This document shows, piece by piece, positions 1,548 through 31,779 of a DNA stretch of 31,779 nucleotides (within the stretch, counting starts at the first letter, position 1; every line of letters starts with the position of its first letter). Origin of the DNA: a virus; IMG/VR virus record IMGVR_UViG_3300023175_003986, positions 1-31,779 of that record; one strand, written 5' to 3'. A program made the translations under genes and the position numbers. The notes beneath the pieces were generated by a model. That model saw nothing but the letters and a program-made list of their open reading frames with translations. It had not been told where the DNA came from and made no database searches.

Positions 1548-3104
1548 ATGGCGATTGTAGATTGTTTTCCATTTTTTGCACCTTACGGTGAAGAGCTTCT
1601 TTATTTACGTGTTAACTTATTAAAAGATCATGTAGATAAATTTATTATTGTTGAATCAAATAAAACTCATAGTGGTAAACCAGTAGAAAGAAAGTTTATG
1701 GAAATTGCTCGTAAGCTTGGACTTCCTATTGAAAAGATTCATTATGTAGAGCATGATATTCCCGAAACAAAAGACTTACAAATTTTAGAAATTGATAAAA
1801 GAAATGCGGGAGTAAATGCAAATAATACTGAATCATTATATGCTCGTGTAAGAGAACGCTTACAAAAAGATGCTGTAATGATGGCAATGCAAGATTTCCA
1901 ACCTGATGATGTATTCATTTATGGAGATGCTGATGAGATTATTAATCCACAACATATTAAATGGGTAGCAGGATTAGCAAAAAACAATCCAGGAATTCTT
2001 GTAAAAATTCCATTAGTATATTTGCAAGGCCGCGCAGATTTAAGAATCCATCATAGAAATGGTGCTCCTGTTGTTTGGTGGAAAGCAATGTTTTTTGCAA
2101 CTAAGCAAAAAATTATGGAAAATAAAATTAGTAATATGAGATGTGGAAACGTTTCTATGCCAGTACAACATCCAAGACATAATGGAGAAGTAATACAAGA
2201 TATGGGTTGGCACTTTGCTTGGATGGGAAATAAAGATCAAAGACAAACTAAAGCAGATTCATTTGCTCATGCATATGACAGCTTTAAATGGATGGATACA
2301 GGCGAAGGCTATTCTGATTATAAAAAGTTTGTAGATACAACTGCACCTATTGAAGGTAATGTTGCTCCGGATGGAAACAAAGATCATGTATTAAAAAGAT
2401 ATCCGCATTCGTCATTACCAAAATTAATATTTGAAAAGCAATGGATTAAAGATTTCTTATTACCTGAAGTTAAATTAGATGAGCCATTTGCATTTAATGA
2501 TTGTCATTGTTATTGGTGTCAAAAACTAGAGTTTCCTTTAATGTATCAATTAGATAAAGAAGGTAAACAGACTTGGTTTGAAATTCCAAGAAGTTGTTCT
2601 GTAACAATGAAAGAAAGTTTTCCAGATCGTCAACAGGTATTGCGCAGTACAAAGCTATATAAAGACCTTGCTAAAAGAAGCAAGCCAATTGTTGTATGGA
2701 CAGATCCAGTTGATAGATTTATTTCTTTAATTAATGTATTTGTTGTTCCTAAACAAAGATACTGGGATTATGGAGATAATCTTTTTCAATCGTTCGATGT
2801 AAAATTAGAAGATTGTACTAAGCAAGAAAAAATAGATTATTTCTTTGCAAATATGAATAAAATTAATTCTTTTCATCAAGTACATCACTTTCATCCACAG
2901 TGTAGATTTGTTGATACAGATAATTTTAAAGAATTTACAATCATTAAAAGAGAAAATTTAAATAAAGAATTAAATATTGATTTGCATTATAATGCTACTG
3001 AAAAAGAAATCACCAAAGAAGATTTAACTAAAGAGCAGATAGAATTTATTAAACGAGCATACGCTAGCGATTACGAGTTTATTAAAAAATATGGCAAAGA
3101 ATGA
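1548..3104 (+). CDS. GT17-type glycosyltransferase fused to a sulfotransferase-like domain
   Basis: 518 residues with two domains. Residues 1 to about 300 resemble Glyco_transf_17 (the beta-1,4-N-acetylglucosaminyltransferase III family): VDCFPFF at the N terminus, VDKFIIVESNKTHSGKP (29-45), a DxD-like FIYGDADEI (123-131) and GWHFAWMG (220-227). Residues from about 340 resemble a Sulfotransfer_2 carbohydrate sulfotransferase: IPRSCSVTMK (346-355) sits where the 5'-phosphosulfate loop of PAPS would bind, WTDPVDRFISL (384-394) matches the RDPxxRxxS 3'-phosphate motif with Arg replaced by Thr, and HHFHPQC (446-452) matches the family's H..PQ element. Residues 319-324 (CHCYWC) carry three Cys at the join. 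It overlaps the next gene by 14 bp. Transfer of a sugar and then sulfate to one glycan is inferred, not shown. Confidence 0.8.
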   Translation: MAIVDCFPFFAPYGEELLYLRVNLLKDHVDKFIIVESNKTHSGKPVERKFMEIARKLGLPIEKIHYVEHDIPETKDLQILEIDKRNAGVNANNTESLYARVRERLQKDAVMMAMQDFQPDDVFIYGDADEIINPQHIKWVAGLAKNNPGILVKIPLVYLQGRADLRIHHRNGAPVVWWKAMFFATKQKIMENKISNMRCGNVSMPVQHPRHNGEVIQDMGWHFAWMGNKDQRQTKADSFAHAYDSFKWMDTGEGYSDYKKFVDTTAPIEGNVAPDGNKDHVLKRYPHSSLPKLIFEKQWIKDFLLPEVKLDEPFAFNDCHCYWCQKLEFPLMYQLDKEGKQTWFEIPRSCSVTMKESFPDRQQVLRSTKLYKDLAKRSKPIVVWTDPVDRFISLINVFVVPKQRYWDYGDNLFQSFDVKLEDCTKQEKIDYFFANMNKINSFHQVHHFHPQCRFVDTDNFKEFTIIKRENLNKELNIDLHYNATEKEITKEDLTKEQIEFIKRAYASDYEFIKKYGKE

Positions 3105-3373: not shown

Positions 3374-3901
3374 ATGGCAGACATCTGGCTTATAAGTGAT
3401 ACTCACTTTAATCATGAAAAAATTTTAGAATTTACCAGACATGATACTGGTGATCTTGTGCGTGGACATCTCTGGCAAGATGTAGAATCAATGAACGAAG
3501 AACTTATTGATAATTGGAATAGTGTTGTTAAACCAAACGATTTAATATACCATCTTGGTGATTTTATGCTGGGTGAAAATAAAGAAGAGTGGCTAGCAAA
3601 TAATATGCATAGACTTAATGGTAAGAAACATCTCATATTAGGTAACCATGATAATCCTAAATTTCTTGCTCCATATTTTAAATCAATACAATTATGGAAG
3701 ATGTTTGATGAAGCAATTCTAACTCATTTGCCTATGCATCCATCTACTTTACAAGAAAAGAACAGATGGAAAGATGGTATTAGTGGTCTTAATATTCATG
3801 GCCATATCCATAGTAATCCGTGTCCAAAAGGACCATATAGATGTGTAAGTGTAGAAGCAATTAATTTTACACCAGTAAATTATGAACTGGTTAAAGCATA
3901 G
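3374..3901 (+). CDS. Calcineurin-like metallophosphoesterase
   Basis: 175 residues with the metallophosphoesterase metal ligands in order: ISDTHFNH (Asp-x-His), YHLGDF (GD), LILGNHDN (GNHD) and NIHGHIHS (GHxH). These bind a di-metal centre that hydrolyses phosphoesters. The protein is close in size to small bacterial and phage calcineurin-like enzymes. It is the first gene after promoter P1, with a leader of roughly 20 nt and a weak ribosome site. The substrate (nucleotide, RNA end or sugar phosphate) cannot be told. Confidence 0.88.
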   Translation: MADIWLISDTHFNHEKILEFTRHDTGDLVRGHLWQDVESMNEELIDNWNSVVKPNDLIYHLGDFMLGENKEEWLANNMHRLNGKKHLILGNHDNPKFLAPYFKSIQLWKMFDEAILTHLPMHPSTLQEKNRWKDGISGLNIHGHIHSNPCPKGPYRCVSVEAINFTPVNYELVKA

Positions 3902-4055
3902 CGGAATTTGGATTAACTTCGCACTAAATCCTTTTCACTGGTCGTTTAGGTTTAACACTATAGTACCAGATGAATTAAGTCCATTTGGATGGAGAATTGA
4001 TATTCAATTTTTATTTTTAAATATAAGAATTGTTTTAGATAATGGTGATTGGTAA
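3882..4055 (+). CDS. Small hydrophobic/aromatic protein of unknown function
   Basis: 57 residues, beginning MNWLKHSGIWINFALNPFHW and ending LFLNIRIVLDNGDW. The ATG overlaps the end of the metallophosphoesterase gene by 20 bp and the reading frame fills what would otherwise be a 300-bp gap. It is rich in Trp, Phe and Ile without a clear single membrane helix. It resembles in style the small basic/aromatic protein at 24268, but no family is recognised. There is no good Shine-Dalgarno, so coupling to the upstream gene is assumed. Confidence 0.55.
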   Translation: MNWLKHSGIWINFALNPFHWSFRFNTIVPDELSPFGWRIDIQFLFLNIRIVLDNGDW

Positions 4056-4061
4056 AAACAG

Positions 4062-4090
4062 TTGACAAATGAAAAAACCTATGATATTAT
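4062..4090 (+). promoter_or_regulatory. Sigma70-type early promoter P2
   Basis: TTGACA at 4062-4067, 17-bp spacer, TATTAT at 4085-4090 (one mismatch to TATAAT). The A-rich lead AAAACAG matches that of P3 and P10. It would drive the gene at 4202 and those following. Confidence 0.7.
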
Positions 4091-4212
4091 ATTATAATAA
4101 TCGTAAAGATTTTAAAGAAGCTATGAAGTGCTTTTTACAAAATGATTACGAAATATTAATTGATATAGATGAATTAAAAATTAATGTATTAGGAGATATT
4201 AATGTCCAGTGA
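4069..4212 (+). CDS. Possible small protein, 47 residues
   Basis: The frame MKKPMILYYNNRKDFKEAMK... ends at a TGA that overlaps the start of the next gene by 11 bp. The composition (acidic IDIDELKINVLGDI tail) looks protein-like. The ATG lies between the -35 and -10 of promoter P2, so this start could only be used on read-through RNA from P1. The alternative is that the stretch is simply the leader of the 4202 gene. Confidence 0.3.
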   Translation: MKKPMILYYNNRKDFKEAMKCFLQNDYEILIDIDELKINVLGDINVQ

Positions 4213-4549
4213 AAAATATGTTGTAGTAACAGCAACTTCTACTCATCGTATGCGTTACGTTGTTCCTGTAAGTGAATTGCAAAAGCTAAATACAAATACT
4301 ATAATTGATGATGATAAAGCAATTGAGTGGGCTCAAGATTCTGTTGTATGTGAAGATGTAGCAGAATTTTCTCAACATTATATGGGTGAACATATTGTAG
4401 ATACTGAAATTGTTGATGAGCAGCAAATATTAAATTTGTGGGATCGTGATAATGATTACATGGCAAATTTAACTACAGAAGAAAAGCTCAAAAGGATTCA
4501 CGATTGGAAAGACCCTTATAAGCAAAAGCAAACAGGAACAATTTTATAA
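4202..4549 (+). CDS. Conserved-looking phage protein, unknown function
   Basis: 115 residues, preceded by TTAGGAGATATTA. The N terminus YVVVTATSTHRMRYVVPVSEL reads as a beta-hairpin with a structured look, and the rest is acidic with DxWDRDNDYMANLTTEEKLKRIHDW near the end. No catalytic motif or membrane segment is visible. It overlaps the next start by one base (TAATG). The family is not recognised. Confidence 0.65.
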   Translation: MSSEKYVVVTATSTHRMRYVVPVSELQKLNTNTIIDDDKAIEWAQDSVVCEDVAEFSQHYMGEHIVDTEIVDEQQILNLWDRDNDYMANLTTEEKLKRIHDWKDPYKQKQTGTIL

Positions 4550-17139: not shown

Positions 17140-17436
17140 ATGCAAAGTTTAGTAAGAGTAGGAAGAGATAGACATATAGGACATGCTAGTCCTACACCAA
17201 ATCCATTTCATGCAACAATTTATTTAAATCCAAATCAAGGTAAAGTAACAGTCGAAAGAGCTTGGGCTGTTGTTGTGGGTGGTTCAACAGCTTGTGGAGA
17301 TCCAGCAATTACAGGATCTGCTAAAGTTACAGTCCAAAATATACCAGTTCATAGAGTAGGTGATTTAACTGGTGGTCACGGATCGTGGGTTCCAAATGCA
17401 GCTGCAACAGGTTCATTATACGTAAGAGCAGGATAA
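17140..17436 (+). CDS. PAAR-domain spike-tip protein
   Basis: 98 residues. The PAAR pattern is clear: an N-terminal VRVGRDRHIGHA, many short beta-strands rich in Gly, Thr and Val, VGGSTACGDPAITGSAKVTV, then VPVHRVGDLTGGHGSW-like text with GDLTGGHG near the end. In T4-like phages PAAR proteins (gp5.4) cap the membrane-piercing spike and hold a metal with His/Cys. No Shine-Dalgarno lies at the normal distance; see the hairpin upstream. It starts the host-recognition block. Confidence 0.88.
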   Translation: MQSLVRVGRDRHIGHASPTPNPFHATIYLNPNQGKVTVERAWAVVVGGSTACGDPAITGSAKVTVQNIPVHRVGDLTGGHGSWVPNAAATGSLYVRAG

Positions 17437-17437
17437 T

Positions 17438-17809
17438 ATGGCTAATCCGAATTATGCTTCTTTACTTGCGCAAATTGCTGCCGAAACAGATCCAGTAATA
17501 AAACAGCAATTAATTGAACTTTGTTATGTTTTCGAACAAGAACTCACTAGAGAAGAAAAAGAACTTTTTGAATATTGCGAATTCGATTATGTAGAAGATA
17601 ATCCCGGATATGAAGAAGGAACAGGAGATCCTTTATATGTTCTTGCTGGATATGTAGCTGATGGTTATATAAATAATATATCAAGTAATACTTCACTTTA
17701 TGTATTATCTGGCTATATGACAGATGGATATGTTGCAACGCAAGTAAGTGGAGATAATTTTATATCATATGTTGGAACATACTTTAATGATAACGGGGAT
17801 AGAACTTAA
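17438..17809 (+). CDS. Probable tail/fibre-associated protein, unknown fold
   Basis: 123 residues between the PAAR and fibre genes. Residues 1-50 form an acidic helix; then two copies of a motif, LYVLAGYVADGY and LYVLSGYMTDGY, about 20 residues apart, and a third diverged FISYVGTYFNDNG. It overlaps the fibre gene by one base. A virion role is inferred from position and repeats. A TATAAATA at 17668 inside the gene could be a late promoter. Confidence 0.65.
   Translation: MANPNYASLLAQIAAETDPVIKQQLIELCYVFEQELTREEKELFEYCEFDYVEDNPGYEEGTGDPLYVLAGYVADGYINNISSNTSLYVLSGYMTDGYVATQVSGDNFISYVGTYFNDNGDRT
17668..17675 (+). promoter_or_regulatory. Possible internal late promoter (TATAAATA)
   Basis: Exact TATAAATA within the 17438 gene, about 134 bp before the collagen-like fibre gene. 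The match may be chance because the local codons (Tyr-Ile-Asn-Asn) are A/T-rich. Confidence 0.3.
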
Positions 17810-20442
17810 TGGCAATTACTAAAAGAAGTGATAAAGGATCAGCGCTAACTTATACGGAGATGGACGATAACTTTGATGCTATCGCTCCACGCACAAGTGC
17901 TAATGGTTCTATTCAAATTCCAGCAGGTACAACAGGAGAAAGAGATAGTTCTCCTCAAGTCGGTTATTTAAGATATAACACTTCAACATCAAGCTTCGAA
18001 GGTTATATTAACGGTTCTTGGTCAGGAGTTGGTTCTGGCGGAGGAGCAGCAGGAGCACAAGGTGTTCAAGGTATTATAGGTTTACAAGGTACCGATGGAG
18101 CAGCAGGATTAAATGGCTCTAACGGTATTCAGGGTGTACAAGGACCAGCTGGTGGCGGTGTTGGTGGTGGCACTCAAGGTGTACAAGGACCTCAAGGTGT
18201 AGAAGGTTCTGGAGGAGATCCAGGTATTCAAGGTCTTATAGGTAATCAAGGTACACAAGGATTAACAGGAGCTGGTGGAACCGGACCACAAGGTGTTCAA
18301 GGTTTTGATGGAACTGGCTCACAAGGTGCACAAGGTACTGACGGTGGTTCTGGTTTACAAGGTATTCAAGGTCCTGCCGGATCAGGCGGTGTTGGTGGTG
18401 GCTCTCAAGGTATTCAAGGACCACAAGGTTTACAAGGTGGTGAAGGTCCTGAAGGTCCTGCTGGTGACAGTATTCAAGGTACACAAGGTACTGATGGAAC
18501 TGGTGGTCAAGGTACACAGGGTATTCAAGGTGGTCCAGGATTTGGAGCTCCAGGTCCTCAAGGTATTCAAGGTACTGAAGCACAAGGTATTCAAGGTATT
18601 CAAGGTGATTTAGGACCTGCTGGTTTTGGTGCTCAAGGTCATCAAGGTGTACAAGGTAATATAGGTCCAGGCGGAACCGGACCACAGGGTGTTCAAGGAT
18701 TTACTGGACAGGGTGTACAAGGTAATATAGGTCCAAATGGTCCTGATGGCCCACAAGGTATTCAAGGTATTCAAGGCCCAGAGGCACAAGGTATTCAAGG
18801 TAATATTGGTCCATCCGGTGTTGGTGTTCAAGGTATTCAAGGTACAAGCATACAAGGAATTAAAGGTTTTGATGGCCCACAAGGTGCTCAAGGTACAACT
18901 GGTATTCAAGGCTTACAAGGTCTTAGTATTCAAGGTAATTATGGTCCACAAGGTACTCAAGGCCTTCAAGGTAATCAAGGTGTAAAAGGAGATCAAGGAG
19001 ACGAGATTCAAGGTATCCAAGGTCTTCAAGGTCTTGGTATTCAAGGATTTACTGGTGGAACGGGCGCACAAGGCACAGATGGTGCGCAAGGTATCCAAGG
19101 TTTACAAGGTGTTCAAGGTAATGGCCCGCAAGGTTTTCAAGGTGTTCAAGGTACTGAAGGAACTCCAGGATATCAAGGTGTTCAAGGTAATCAAGCTGCG
19201 CAAGGTATTCAAGGTACTCGTGGTTTAATTGGTATTCAAGGTCCATCTGATGGTGTTCAAGGTATTCAAGGTAATCCTGGTCCACAAGGTCCTGCAGATG
19301 GTCCACAAGGTACTACTGGTACAGCCGGTTCTGATGGTACAGATGGTGCACAAGGATTTCAAGGCTTACAAGGAGAAACCGGACCGCAAGGTATAATCGG
19401 TATTCAAGGACCTGCAGATGGTCCACAAGGTACTCAAGGCGTCCAAGGAGTTCAAGGCACAACTGGTCTTCAAGGTTTAATTGGAACAGGTGCACAAGGT
19501 ACAACCGGTCTTCAAGGTTTATTAGGTAATCAAGGTGTACAAGGTACATTAGGTTTACAAGGACAAGCAGGATCTAGTCAAGGTATTCAAGGTTTACAAG
19601 GTCCATCTGATGGTGCTGATGGAGCACAAGGTATTCAAGGTGTTCAAGGCGCGCAAGGCACAATTGGTCTTCAGGGCTTATTAGGTAATCAAGGTGTTCA
19701 AGGACCTCGTAATTTCCAAGGTATTCAAGGTATTCAGGGCATCCAAGGTATTCAAGGTCTTCAATCAATACAAGGTATACAAGGTGGCACAGGCCCATCT
19801 GGTGGACTTGGACCACAAGGTGTTCAAGGTAACCAAGGTGTACAATCAATACAAGGTTTACAAGGACAGGCAGGATCTAGTCAAGGTGTACAAGGTTTCC
19901 AAGGTATAATAGGTCTTCAAGGTGCTGTTGGAACTGGAGATATGAATGATCTAATTGATGATACTAGTCCAGATCTTGGTGGTAACTTAGACTTAAACTC
20001 TAATGATATTATAGGTACTGGTAATATTACCATTACTGGTTCTGTTTCTGCAAATACTCTAAATATTGATGGTTTAACAACAATTGCAGAAATAACGGAA
20101 GTAACATCAGCTTTAACTGGAGCTACTGGTACTGTTACTCATAATATTAATAATGGTTTAATATTCGATCATACAAGTTTAGCTGCGAACTTTACTGCTA
20201 ACTTTACAAACGTTCCAACTACAAATAGTAGAACTATAAATGTTGTTTTAATTTTAACTCAAGGTGCTACTGCTTATATGCCAACCGCAGTTCAAATTGA
20301 TGGCTCGGCGCAAACTATTCTATGGCAAAATGGATCTACTCCTTCAGGAACTACAAGTGGAACTGATATTGTAAGTTTTACTTTGATTAGATCTTCTGGT
20401 GGAGCCTGGAAAGTTATTGGATCAGCAACAGGTTATTCATAA
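17809..20442 (+). CDS. Collagen-like tail fibre protein
   Basis: 877 residues. N terminus (1-80) with SALTYTEMDDNFDAI, a sequence type found at the start of many marine phage fibre proteins, probably the attachment part. Residues about 80-715 are Gly-X-Y repeats, mostly GxQG hexapeptides such as GIQGVQGPQG, expected to form a collagen-type triple helix without hydroxyproline. The last 160 residues (DLGGNLDLNSNDIIGTGNIT, then a beta-rich domain ending VIGSATGYS) look like a trimerisation or receptor-binding head. It lies directly before the propeller gene. Many open frames on both strands inside it are shadows of the repeat. Confidence 0.9.
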   Translation: MAITKRSDKGSALTYTEMDDNFDAIAPRTSANGSIQIPAGTTGERDSSPQVGYLRYNTSTSSFEGYINGSWSGVGSGGGAAGAQGVQGIIGLQGTDGAAGLNGSNGIQGVQGPAGGGVGGGTQGVQGPQGVEGSGGDPGIQGLIGNQGTQGLTGAGGTGPQGVQGFDGTGSQGAQGTDGGSGLQGIQGPAGSGGVGGGSQGIQGPQGLQGGEGPEGPAGDSIQGTQGTDGTGGQGTQGIQGGPGFGAPGPQGIQGTEAQGIQGIQGDLGPAGFGAQGHQGVQGNIGPGGTGPQGVQGFTGQGVQGNIGPNGPDGPQGIQGIQGPEAQGIQGNIGPSGVGVQGIQGTSIQGIKGFDGPQGAQGTTGIQGLQGLSIQGNYGPQGTQGLQGNQGVKGDQGDEIQGIQGLQGLGIQGFTGGTGAQGTDGAQGIQGLQGVQGNGPQGFQGVQGTEGTPGYQGVQGNQAAQGIQGTRGLIGIQGPSDGVQGIQGNPGPQGPADGPQGTTGTAGSDGTDGAQGFQGLQGETGPQGIIGIQGPADGPQGTQGVQGVQGTTGLQGLIGTGAQGTTGLQGLLGNQGVQGTLGLQGQAGSSQGIQGLQGPSDGADGAQGIQGVQGAQGTIGLQGLLGNQGVQGPRNFQGIQGIQGIQGIQGLQSIQGIQGGTGPSGGLGPQGVQGNQGVQSIQGLQGQAGSSQGVQGFQGIIGLQGAVGTGDMNDLIDDTSPDLGGNLDLNSNDIIGTGNITITGSVSANTLNIDGLTTIAEITEVTSALTGATGTVTHNINNGLIFDHTSLAANFTANFTNVPTTNSRTINVVLILTQGATAYMPTAVQIDGSAQTILWQNGSTPSGTTSGTDIVSFTLIRSSGGAWKVIGSATGYS
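18050..19940 (+). repeat. Collagen-like coding repeat array (CAAGGT-rich)
   Basis: About 1.9 kb of short imperfect repeats built on CAAGGTATTCAAGGT-like units that code for Gly-X-Gln-Gly. Wobble-position changes are frequent, so it is kept as protein repeat, not as recent DNA duplication, but length change by slippage or recombination is possible. Confidence 0.88.
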
Positions 20443-21704
20443 TGGCTAGAGTAGCCAGTTTAACATCGCAGGCATTAATAGGATTAGGTGTCAGCAGAGA
20501 ATGGAGCCTGTTCCACACACTAGATAACCCAAGTGCTTATGATACTAGTTATGATGATTCTTTTGGTTATTCGGTAGCAATATCAGGTGATCGTGCGATT
20601 GTAGGTGTTCGTAACGAAGATGACGCCGGTGGTTTAAGTTCAGGTAAGGCTTATATTTTTAATACCATAACTGGAGCATTAGTACATACACTAGATAACC
20701 CAAATGCTTATAGTACTAGTGCTAGTGATTATTTTGGTTCGTCGGTAGCAATAGATGGTAATTATGTCATCGTTGGTGCTGATGCGGAAGATGACGCCGG
20801 TGGTACTAGTTCAGGTAAAGCGTATATCTTCCACACGGCTAATGGTACTTTAGCTCATACATTAGATAACCCAAATGCTTATAGTACTACTGCTGGTGAT
20901 GGCTTTGGTATTTCAGTAGGAATAAGTGGCAACTATGCTATTGTAGGTGCTTATAATGAAGATGATGCTGGTGGTACTAGTTCAGGTAAGGCTTATATCT
21001 TCCACACTGCTAATGGTACTTTAGCTCATACACTAGACAATCCTAATGCTTATGATACTAGTGCTGATGATTTATTTGGTTATTCGGTAGCAATATCAGG
21101 TGATCGTGCTATTGTTGGTGCTTTTCGAGAAGATGATGCAGGTGGTACCAATTCAGGTAAAGCATACATTTTTGATGTATCAACAGGTGCTTTGGTTTAT
21201 ACACTTGATAATCCAAATGCTTATAGTACTAGTACTAGTGATATCTTTGGTTCGTCGGTAGGAATAAGTGGCAACTATGCTATAGTAGGTGCTTATGGAG
21301 AAGATGATTCAGGCGGCAATACATCTGGTAAAGCGTATATCTTTAGTACTTCTACTGGTAACTTAGTTCATACATTAGATAATCCCAACCCTTATGATAC
21401 TAGTGCTAGTGATTATTTTGGTGACTCAGTAGCAATCGATGGCAACTATGCCATCGTCGGTGCTTATCTTGAAGATGATGCTGGTGGTATTAGCTCAGGT
21501 AAAACTTATATCTTCAATGTAACTAGCGGAGATTTAGTAAAGACGTTAGATAACCCAAATGCTTATAGTACAAGCGCCACTGATCGCTTTGGTTACTCAG
21601 TAGCAATAAGTGGTAATTATGCGATTGTAAGTGCTGATAGAGAAGATGATGATGCTGGTATACGTAGTGATGCAGGTAAAGCATATATCTACAAACTCTC
21701 TTAA
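20442..21704 (+). CDS. Seven-repeat FG-GAP-type beta-propeller protein, probable receptor-binding
   Basis: 420 residues. After a short N terminus (SREWSLFHT), seven repeats of 57 residues follow, each starting LDNPNAYSTS and containing DxFGxSVAISGNYAIVGA, then a loop EDDAGGTSSGKAYIF. FG-x-SV-A and the Gly/Asp-rich loops match FG-GAP integrin-type repeats. Seven copies would close a seven-bladed propeller, with the N-terminal FHTLDNP strand completing the last, shorter repeat (KAYIYKLS). It overlaps the fibre stop by one base, so it probably works with the fibre in host binding. Nearest functional description is inference. Confidence 0.85.
   Translation: MARVASLTSQALIGLGVSREWSLFHTLDNPSAYDTSYDDSFGYSVAISGDRAIVGVRNEDDAGGLSSGKAYIFNTITGALVHTLDNPNAYSTSASDYFGSSVAIDGNYVIVGADAEDDAGGTSSGKAYIFHTANGTLAHTLDNPNAYSTTAGDGFGISVGISGNYAIVGAYNEDDAGGTSSGKAYIFHTANGTLAHTLDNPNAYDTSADDLFGYSVAISGDRAIVGAFREDDAGGTNSGKAYIFDVSTGALVYTLDNPNAYSTSTSDIFGSSVGISGNYAIVGAYGEDDSGGNTSGKAYIFSTSTGNLVHTLDNPNPYDTSASDYFGDSVAIDGNYAIVGAYLEDDAGGISSGKTYIFNVTSGDLVKTLDNPNAYSTSATDRFGYSVAISGNYAIVSADREDDDAGIRSDAGKAYIYKLS
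20520..21704 (+). repeat. Seven tandem 171-bp repeats
   Basis: The unit start (C/T-TAGAT or close variant) recurs at 20520, 20691, 20862, 21033, 21204, 21375 and 21546, an exact 171-bp period with no length change; the last unit is 159 bp. Copies differ by scattered, often synonymous, changes, with some patches (repeats 2-3-5 and 1-4) more alike. Confidence 0.92.
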
Positions 21705-30462: not shown

Positions 30463-30750
30463 ATGGATACAATGTTACCACAGGTTATTACTCCTGATAC
30501 TCGTAAAGTAATTCAAGATGCTTTACAAGAAATGTCAAATTCTATGACAAGAGTTGAAGCAGAAAAAGATCATCAAAAAGCAATTGGTGATAAAGTTCTT
30601 GAAGATTGTGGAGTTCCTAAAAAAGACTTTAATAAACTTGCAAGAATTTTTCATGCATCTAACCTTGCTCAAGAAGCAGCTAAGAACGAAGAATTTATGT
30701 CTTTTGCAGAAGCTGTTATGGGCAGTAGTACAACAGCATTAGATGCATAA
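30463..30750 (+). CDS. DsbA-like dsDNA-binding late-transcription protein (tentative)
   Basis: 95 residues. All helical: TRKVIQDALQEMSNSMTRVE, AEKDHQKAIGDKVLEDCGVP, KKDFNKLARIFHASN. Length and the pattern of two helices, then KxFNKLA, recall the T4 late-transcription double-stranded DNA-binding protein DsbA. Assignment rests on pattern only. It overlaps a zinc-ribbon microprotein gene by 8 bp. Confidence 0.5.
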   Translation: MDTMLPQVITPDTRKVIQDALQEMSNSMTRVEAEKDHQKAIGDKVLEDCGVPKKDFNKLARIFHASNLAQEAAKNEEFMSFAEAVMGSSTTALDA

Positions 30751-31121: not shown

Positions 31122-31269
31122 ACATTGGAAAACTGGTAAAGAATTATCTGTCGAAGGAGTTGTTGTTAATTGGGTCAACGAACAAAGTGATAGAATAGTT
31201 GTAGAAAAACAAAAAGGAGAATACGAAGATATTCTCAAAAATACAATAATTAGTATAGAAGAAATATAA
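31102..31269 (+). CDS. Small SH3-like protein, 55 residues
   Basis: MQKVKFKHWKTGKELSVEGV then VVNWVNEQSDRIVVEKQKGE and YEDILKNTIISIEEI, a run of short beta-strands. Start at ATG 31102; an earlier in-frame start at 31030 would fall inside the exported-protein gene. The stop overlaps the next ATG by one base. Unknown function. Confidence 0.55.
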   Translation: MQKVKFKHWKTGKELSVEGVVVNWVNEQSDRIVVEKQKGEYEDILKNTIISIEEI

Positions 31270-31406
31270 TGTATATTTGGAAAGCTAAAATTTTAATTGA
31301 TGGTATTCCAAGAGATATGACAACTAATGCGGATAATCAAATGGTTGCCCGCACATATTTTGAAACTTTTGGAAAAATATTAAACGGACCAAGAATTATT
31401 GGTTAG
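31269..31406 (+). CDS. Small hypothetical protein, 45 residues
   Basis: MYIWKAKILIDGIPRDMTTN, then a helical ADNQMVARTYFETFGKILNG. A one-base overlap (TAATG) with the previous gene, and its end overlaps the tail end of the opposing gene by 11 bp. Function unknown. Confidence 0.5.
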   Translation: MYIWKAKILIDGIPRDMTTNADNQMVARTYFETFGKILNGPRIIG

Positions 31407-31779
31407 CATCAAGAGGTTTTGGATGAACTGCTCCAGTACAATGAAGTATTTCATGACCAAGGATTGCTAATGTTTCTCTATCATCCCAACTACTTGGTGG
31501 TGGAATAACAACAATACATTTAGCCGTTTCTTCGTTTACTAGTGCAAATCCTTTTACATGCCAACTTTTTTTATCAGGATCTTTATTAAATTCTTTCCAT
31601 AAAGCTTGCATATCTTCATCAGTTAACGCAACATACAAATGTACCGTAAAGTCAGACCTTTTAGGAATAACTTTCGCGTCTTGCCCGAAATATGCTAAGT
31701 CATAATTGTCTTTCGATACAGATATTGCAGATGCAATTGAAGAGAAAAATAAACTTAGTAAAAATAAGATTTTTACCAT
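31396..31779 (-). CDS. Exported metzincin-like metalloprotein
   Basis: 127 residues, the only minus-strand gene; its ATG is at the window edge, so upstream signals are unseen. Residues 1-18 (MVKILFLLSLFFSSIASA) are a signal peptide with an ASA cleavage site. LAILGHEILHCTGAVHPK contains HEILHCTGAVH, an exact HExxHxxGxxH zinc site of metzincin proteases (His109, Glu110, His113, His119). The protein is short for a full protease domain and has two Cys (CIV and HCTG). It may cut periplasmic or surface proteins of the host, but this is inferred. Confidence 0.75.
   Translation of the reverse strand: MVKILFLLSLFFSSIASAISVSKDNYDLAYFGQDAKVIPKRSDFTVHLYVALTDEDMQALWKEFNKDPDKKSWHVKGFALVNEETAKCIVVIPPPSSWDDRETLAILGHEILHCTGAVHPKPLDANQ

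Follow-up and report, generated by a model that had tools for sequence, protein, structure and literature searches.

The last gene of the window, that is, of the whole 31,779-bp stretch of viral DNA analyzed here (record G000), is real and constrained, standing under purifying selection, and encodes a very small exported protein, P0001, which is probably a zinc protease to judge from its conserved residues. P0001 belongs to a protein family, found in marine phages, that had not been named before; its sequence features mark it as a minimal zincin-like protein of unassigned clan and not as a metzincin. Because the zincin genes of this family usually lie in operons with membrane-attack genes, a role in envelope breakage late in infection is probable. 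As the best explanation we tentatively favor a late-expressed periplasmic zinc protease that would weaken the envelope for lysis. The features discussed below are collected in Table 1.

Table 1. Features of the P0001 gene, its surroundings and related loci
Feature	Position	Strand	Evidence
Exported zincin-like protein gene, 127 aa, P0001	31396..31779	-	ORF call, homologues, purifying selection
Predicted Sec signal peptide, residues 1-18, AxA cleavage site	31726..31779	-	Sequence; equivalent AxA/lipobox N-termini across family
Cys88, invariant	31516..31518	-	Alignments
Candidate zinc site H109-E110-x-x-H113-C114-x-G116-x-x-H119, shortly after invariant WDDRE (98-102)	31423..31455	-	Alignments; sole six-frame motif
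Cys114, invariant; candidate disulfide partner of Cys88 (putative pairing)	31438..31440	-	Alignments
Overlap with + ORF 31269-31406, 11 bp, convergent; position of early(+)/late(-) switch	31396..31406	.	ORF calls; synteny
T4 DsbA-like transcription regulator, synteny anchor before strand switch in relatives	30463..30750	+	phrog_639 E=1e-16; synteny
MscS-beta neighbors of family genes	L002 1436-1768; L003 2797-3129; L018 3016-3351 (-); other loci		PF00924
Distant relatives: Alteromonas phages PT11-V22 gp25, PT15-A5 gp7; Phage C48C1 CDS0072, CDS0150; Xanthomonas phage Rb1 CDS29			

The Gene and Its Product

The ORF comprises 127 codons with an ATG start. A chance ORF is ruled out by the homologues, by dN/dS and by the motif expectation: dN/dS lies between 0.05 and 0.32 for eight of nine homologue pairs (the ninth, at 0.72, is too close to inform), and HEILHCTGAVH, residues 109-119 of the protein, is the sole HExxHxxGxxH in the six frames of the window, with 0.0014 expected by chance. 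The N-terminus, read by eye, is MVKILFLLSLFFSSIASA^ISVS, showing one lysine, a hydrophobic stretch and an A-S-A site; the protein also includes GHEILHCTGAVH. With the ORF confirmed, the signal peptide read from the sequence and homologues carrying an AxA site or a lipobox, the minus-strand gene with an export signal that the preliminary description had proposed is borne out.

All other accepted genes of the window lie on the plus strand, and the 3' end of the P0001 gene overlaps that of a 45-codon plus-strand ORF. Both observations agree with the preliminary description, but the overlapped ORF is unproven as a gene, having no homologue outside its own phage among the loci compared. The record breaks off at the start codon of P0001, which holds its last base. 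Just one further contig of the phage extends as far as this gene; it is 99.8% identical over 6.4 kb and ends on the same base. A third contig, L062, stops short of the gene, and a 26-base exact search of IMG/VR for sequence past position 31779 returned only the contig with the identical end base. That two IMG/VR contigs (the window and L001/L060) stop at the first base of a start codon may reflect either an assembly break or boundary trimming.

Elsewhere in the window, positions 17809-20442 encode an 877-aa collagen-like protein with GxQG-type repeats, just preceded by a PAAR-like ORF (17140-17436, recognized by eye), and positions 20442-21704 encode a 420-aa, beta-propeller-like protein with six or seven tandem units of 171 bp.

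A Family in Uncultured Viruses and Its Distant Relatives

Iterative scans of the uncultured viruses in IMG/VR uncovered about 52 loci with 40 distinct proteins, 27-46% identical to P0001. The family is defined here by an export signal, Cys88, WDDRE and GHExxHC....H; P0001 shows all of these and is found by hmmsearch with E about 1e-36, being itself among the profile members. Invariant in the 33 core sequences (P0001 numbering) are D24, G32, R41, F78, C88, W98-D99-D100-R101-E102, I106, G108, H109, E110, H113, C114 and H119; this conservation of the catalytic residues supports a zincin-like protein. Most members have L, F, Y, M or A in place of Gly116. Full-length homologues begin with a hydrophobic export signal, in which AxA usually directly precedes the mature N-terminus LDDFDL; L037 and L039 show the lipobox LSGC in place of the AxA site.

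P0001 alone revealed no Pfam, PHROG, NCBIfam or PDB family match. None of the homologues passed the curated cut-offs of Pfam and NCBIfam or gave a clear E-value with the PHROGs; the best was phrog_1365 (E=0.0024, L007), rejected as a related family, being absent from 14 homologue-bearing records. P0001 and L003 as queries gave no match in a phage collection (50,697 phage records for P0001), and a scan of 84,980 species genomes with narrow patterns found no cellular homologues.

With L037 and L022 as queries against deposited phages, weak matches appeared in Alteromonas, C48C1 and Xanthomonas phages. All five of these distant relatives are annotated as 'hypothetical protein', measure 107-126 aa and are exported, with a lipobox-like site as read from their sequences. 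They share with the P0001 family a strand Cys before the helix, GHExxHC and a third His close by, shortly after which the chain ends; they differ in their low identity (about 20-28%) and in having neither WDDRE nor LDDFDL; in four of the five, Rb1 being the exception, the third His lies one residue further on.

Clan Assignment and Predicted Structure

The site had been described as an exact metzincin zinc site. The motif HExxHxxGxxH, which metzincins (the MMP, astacin and pappalysin clans) share with P0001 and a few relatives, is indeed exact in P0001, but membership in the clan does not hold. Metzincins are defined by the extended zinc motif plus a Met-turn (PMC6949598). Only eight residues, none of them Met, follow the third His in P0001, two do so in L036 and one in L042; because just 1 to 8 residues remain in several members, there is no space for a Met-turn. 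Gly is replaced in most relatives while the H, E, H and H stay invariant, and this alone decides nothing on metzincin status, since mirolysin also lacks Gly, having Asp231 there (PMC6949598). The family is metzincin-like in that the helix ends at the second His and the third His follows six residues on, and unlike metzincins in that it has neither Met-turn nor C-terminal subdomain, no conserved Gly and no profile or fold match.

Nor does the family fit the gluzincins (M48, M4, etc.), whose third ligand is a Glu downstream of HExxH: the sole invariant downstream candidate ligand is His119, and no Glu is kept after it across the short members. The M48-type periplasmic proteases LoiP and BepA resemble the family as envelope-located zincins, and sub-threshold Pfam M48 matches occur within it (E 0.008-0.07). 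It is unlike them in being much shorter, in its candidate third ligand, His rather than Glu, and in these scores below the cut-off. A zincin-like protein has HExxH in a helix plus a further invariant ligand, and in this family H109, E110, H113 and H119 are all invariant.

The AlphaFold2 models (pLDDT 82.3 and 85.4, pTM 0.64 and 0.75) have a good core with the predicted order strand-helix-strand-strand-helix, in which HExxH closes the last helix, modeled at residues 101-113. The top fold match in BFVD was A0A6J7WQR9, an uncharacterized phage protein (E=1e-5), and weaker matches there include phage proteins annotated as metalloproteases or SprT. Foldseek against the PDB gave no significant fold match, with MMP-11 as the best zincin at rank 25 (prob 0.15), a second PDB fold comparison had no zincin among its best 50 matches, and sequence-profile comparison with the PDB returned nothing significant. 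The absence of a matching solved structure, together with a mature length of about 110 aa, below that of typical zincins, and the missing C-terminal subdomain, would suit a zincin scaffold without activity, a periplasmic inhibitor that binds metal or a hydrolase with a different kind of substrate. We consider such a function improbable, given that the catalytic Glu and the three His are invariant in 33 of 33 core sequences, which argues for catalysis.

Gene Neighborhoods

After DsbA, T4-like relatives have a few small plus-strand genes and then a convergent minus-strand late block that ends in the major capsid gene, with gp23-gp18 on the minus strand at the corresponding spot; the minus block of L070 includes the major head protein, scaffold, head protease, portal and tail tube. 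The late motif TATAAATA occurs in L070 in five copies, all on the minus strand; the window itself shows no enrichment of it, as fits a stretch that is mostly early block. Nine consensus sigma-70 promoters, TTGACAT-N16-TATAAT, lie in the window (3318-28076), all on the plus strand and none expected by chance; eight of them sit inside a conserved 56-nt repeat. From synteny we infer that the P0001 gene is probably the last (3'-terminal) gene of a minus-strand late operon, with gp23 just past the record end. A profile search found no family member beside DsbA in the T4-like relatives, so the zincin gene is an accessory at the DsbA boundary.

The preliminary description had called the gene lone, which its likely position at the convergent end of the late block and the same-strand neighbors in most family loci argue against: the upstream gene shares the strand in 35 of 38 loci and the downstream gene in 34 of 37, and the most common arrangement is a 4-bp overlap on the upstream side. 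Like 'exact metzincin site', 'lone' is a window-limited statement, because the record stops at the start codon and nothing upstream is visible.

Neighbors were counted within six genes in the 31 loci with genes on both sides. A protein with three transmembrane segments (3-TM) stands near the zincin gene in 15 loci, a coiled-coil TM protein in 14, DUF1353 in 12 and a mini MscS-beta protein in nine. The 3-TM protein resembles GTA_holin_3TM weakly (E=0.026, below the Pfam cut-off) and is a possible holin. DUF1353 passed the Pfam cut-off in all eight loci tested; its member TtaP is a phospholipase A2, and the same is expected for other members by the authors of that work (PMC11525133). One open frame of L041 (633-1601) combines DUF1353 with the zincin and a membrane segment or signal, on a single contig where a sequencing indel is possible. 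L018 carries an Rz-type (Rz-like) spanin pair 6 kb from the zincin gene, and the visible part of this contig has no DUF1353 next to it. By eye, no endolysin was recognized beside the zincin gene in any locus, and a search of the window for DUF1353, 3-TM, coiled-coil and MscS-like proteins, TerL, portal and the neighbor lipoproteins found none.

Several neighbors deserve mention in their own right. The MscS-type proteins, which have 110 aa, a single TM and an MscS beta-domain (PF00924; for L003, E=1e-5), are possibly phage-encoded mini mechanosensitive-channel-like proteins; in L018 the MscS-like gene adjoins a Class 3 lipase-like gene (2247-3026, minus strand; GHSLG motif, by eye). On the phage contigs L028, L044 and L045, a curli-like cassette lies beside or facing the zincin gene; it combines CsgG (PF03783, with E from about 1e-51 to 1e-56) with curlin repeats (PF07012). 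L050 has a second zincin-like gene near the homologue (3867-4493, minus strand), cytoplasmic-looking and SprT-like below the cut-off. TusA-, IscA-, IscU- and glutaredoxin-like genes, identified by eye in the homologue-bearing L045 (10116-10340, minus strand), L024, L011 and L020, suggest sulfur-metabolizing hosts for these phages.

Possible Roles in Infection

Small lipoproteins (c15, c18, c22) and the exported c19 are frequent neighbors, and in L033 and L035 the zincin is fused to c19. The zincin may accordingly be a processing protease that activates or releases a co-encoded exported phage lipoprotein or membrane partner, much as the Listeria Mtz cleaves the neighboring lipoprotein Tim (PMC8235301). 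We regard this as unlikely, as no single lipoprotein partner is common to all loci and none occurs in the window.

A different context is seen in L007, L019, L022 and L037-39, where the homologues lie near tail-fiber-like genes, and in the Alteromonas phages, where V22 gp25 and A5 gp7 stand directly upstream of the tail fiber within a host-recognition module common to unrelated phages (PMC10579305). The main rival to a role in lysis starts here: the exported zincin would trim or destroy the surface receptor that the phage itself uses, which would keep infected cells or debris from capturing new virions, be it as superinfection exclusion or as a release aid. The lipoprotein forms, which would put the enzyme at the membrane, fit this as well. 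T4-like phages, however, express their classical superinfection exclusion genes early, whereas the gene in the window probably has a late position. In most family loci the zincin is accompanied by 3-TM, DUF1353 and coiled-coil genes rather than by tail fibers, and the link to A5 and V22 consists of weak similarity (E 0.1-0.9) plus the shared motif. On balance, receptor processing seems rather doubtful. The relatives beside tail-fiber genes could also speak for a virion-associated protease acting at entry, a role that the preliminary description had allowed for. It is very unlikely, because Sec or lipoprotein export would take the protein out of the cytoplasm, where tails assemble, and no tail-binding domain is visible.

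We therefore return to a late periplasmic protease as an accessory of lysis, which the preliminary description had also considered and which the operons with DUF1353, 3-TM, coiled-coil and lipoprotein genes make plausible. The zincin would be made late, as the final gene of the minus-strand structural operon, and exported by Sec to the periplasm, with some relatives anchored as lipoproteins. A Cys88-Cys114 disulfide would hold it together, and His109, Glu110, His113 and His119 would bind zinc and cut the substrate, an envelope protein of the host or else a phage lipoprotein that is exported alongside the zincin; cleavage may then weaken the envelope and aid holin and lipase in lysis. This explanation draws on the invariant H, E, H and H, the two Cys and WDDRE across the 33 core sequences, on the export signals of the full-length homologues, on the same-strand operons with their recurrent neighbors, the DUF1353 fusion and the L018 spanins, and, for late timing, on the minus-strand gp23-gp18 block of the relatives, the minus-only TATAAATA of L070 and the plus-only sigma-70 promoters of the window. 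Against it stand the lack of a significant PDB fold match, of a recognized endolysin beside the gene and, within the window, of any partner of the DUF1353, 3-TM or coiled-coil kind, as well as the sub-threshold holin match of the 3-TM protein and the tail-fiber neighbors of the L007, L019, L022 and L037 homologues and the Alteromonas relatives.

A precedent exists in the Listeria monocytogenes metzincin Mtz, which is phage-derived and exported and acts with Tim to increase sensitivity to phage lysis (PMC8235301). The shared features are an exported HExxHxxGxxH protein, phage origin and a proposed accessory function in lysis. Compared by description rather than by sequence, Mtz differs in its Met-turn (AIMLD) and Gram-positive host, while the P0001 family has no Met-turn, a variable Gly, and the invariant Cys88, Cys114 and WDDRE. 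Exported phage-derived zincins with an effect on lysis are thus known in principle; new is the combination of a minimal zincin in which the Met-turn is missing, two invariant Cys and a mature protein that starts with LDDFDL, of which we found no description in the papers searched.

Significance

Lysis by phages of Gram-negative bacteria is usually accounted for by holin, endolysin and spanin. To this set a dedicated protease in the periplasm would, if true, add an enzymatic step, and it could explain some phages that have no recognizable lysis genes nearby. Going further, many marine phages might carry an undescribed envelope-attack module of a disulfide-bonded periplasmic zincin, a DUF1353 phospholipase, a 3-TM protein and lipoproteins; we consider this somewhat unlikely, but if true, it would add proteolysis and lipolysis to the holin-endolysin-spanin steps. 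With about 100-110 residues left after signal removal and a fixed Cys pair in place of the C-terminal subdomain, these proteins would rank among the smallest exported zinc proteases, and some 40 distinct natural sequences together with cultured distant relatives in Alteromonas and Xanthomonas phages make the family testable.
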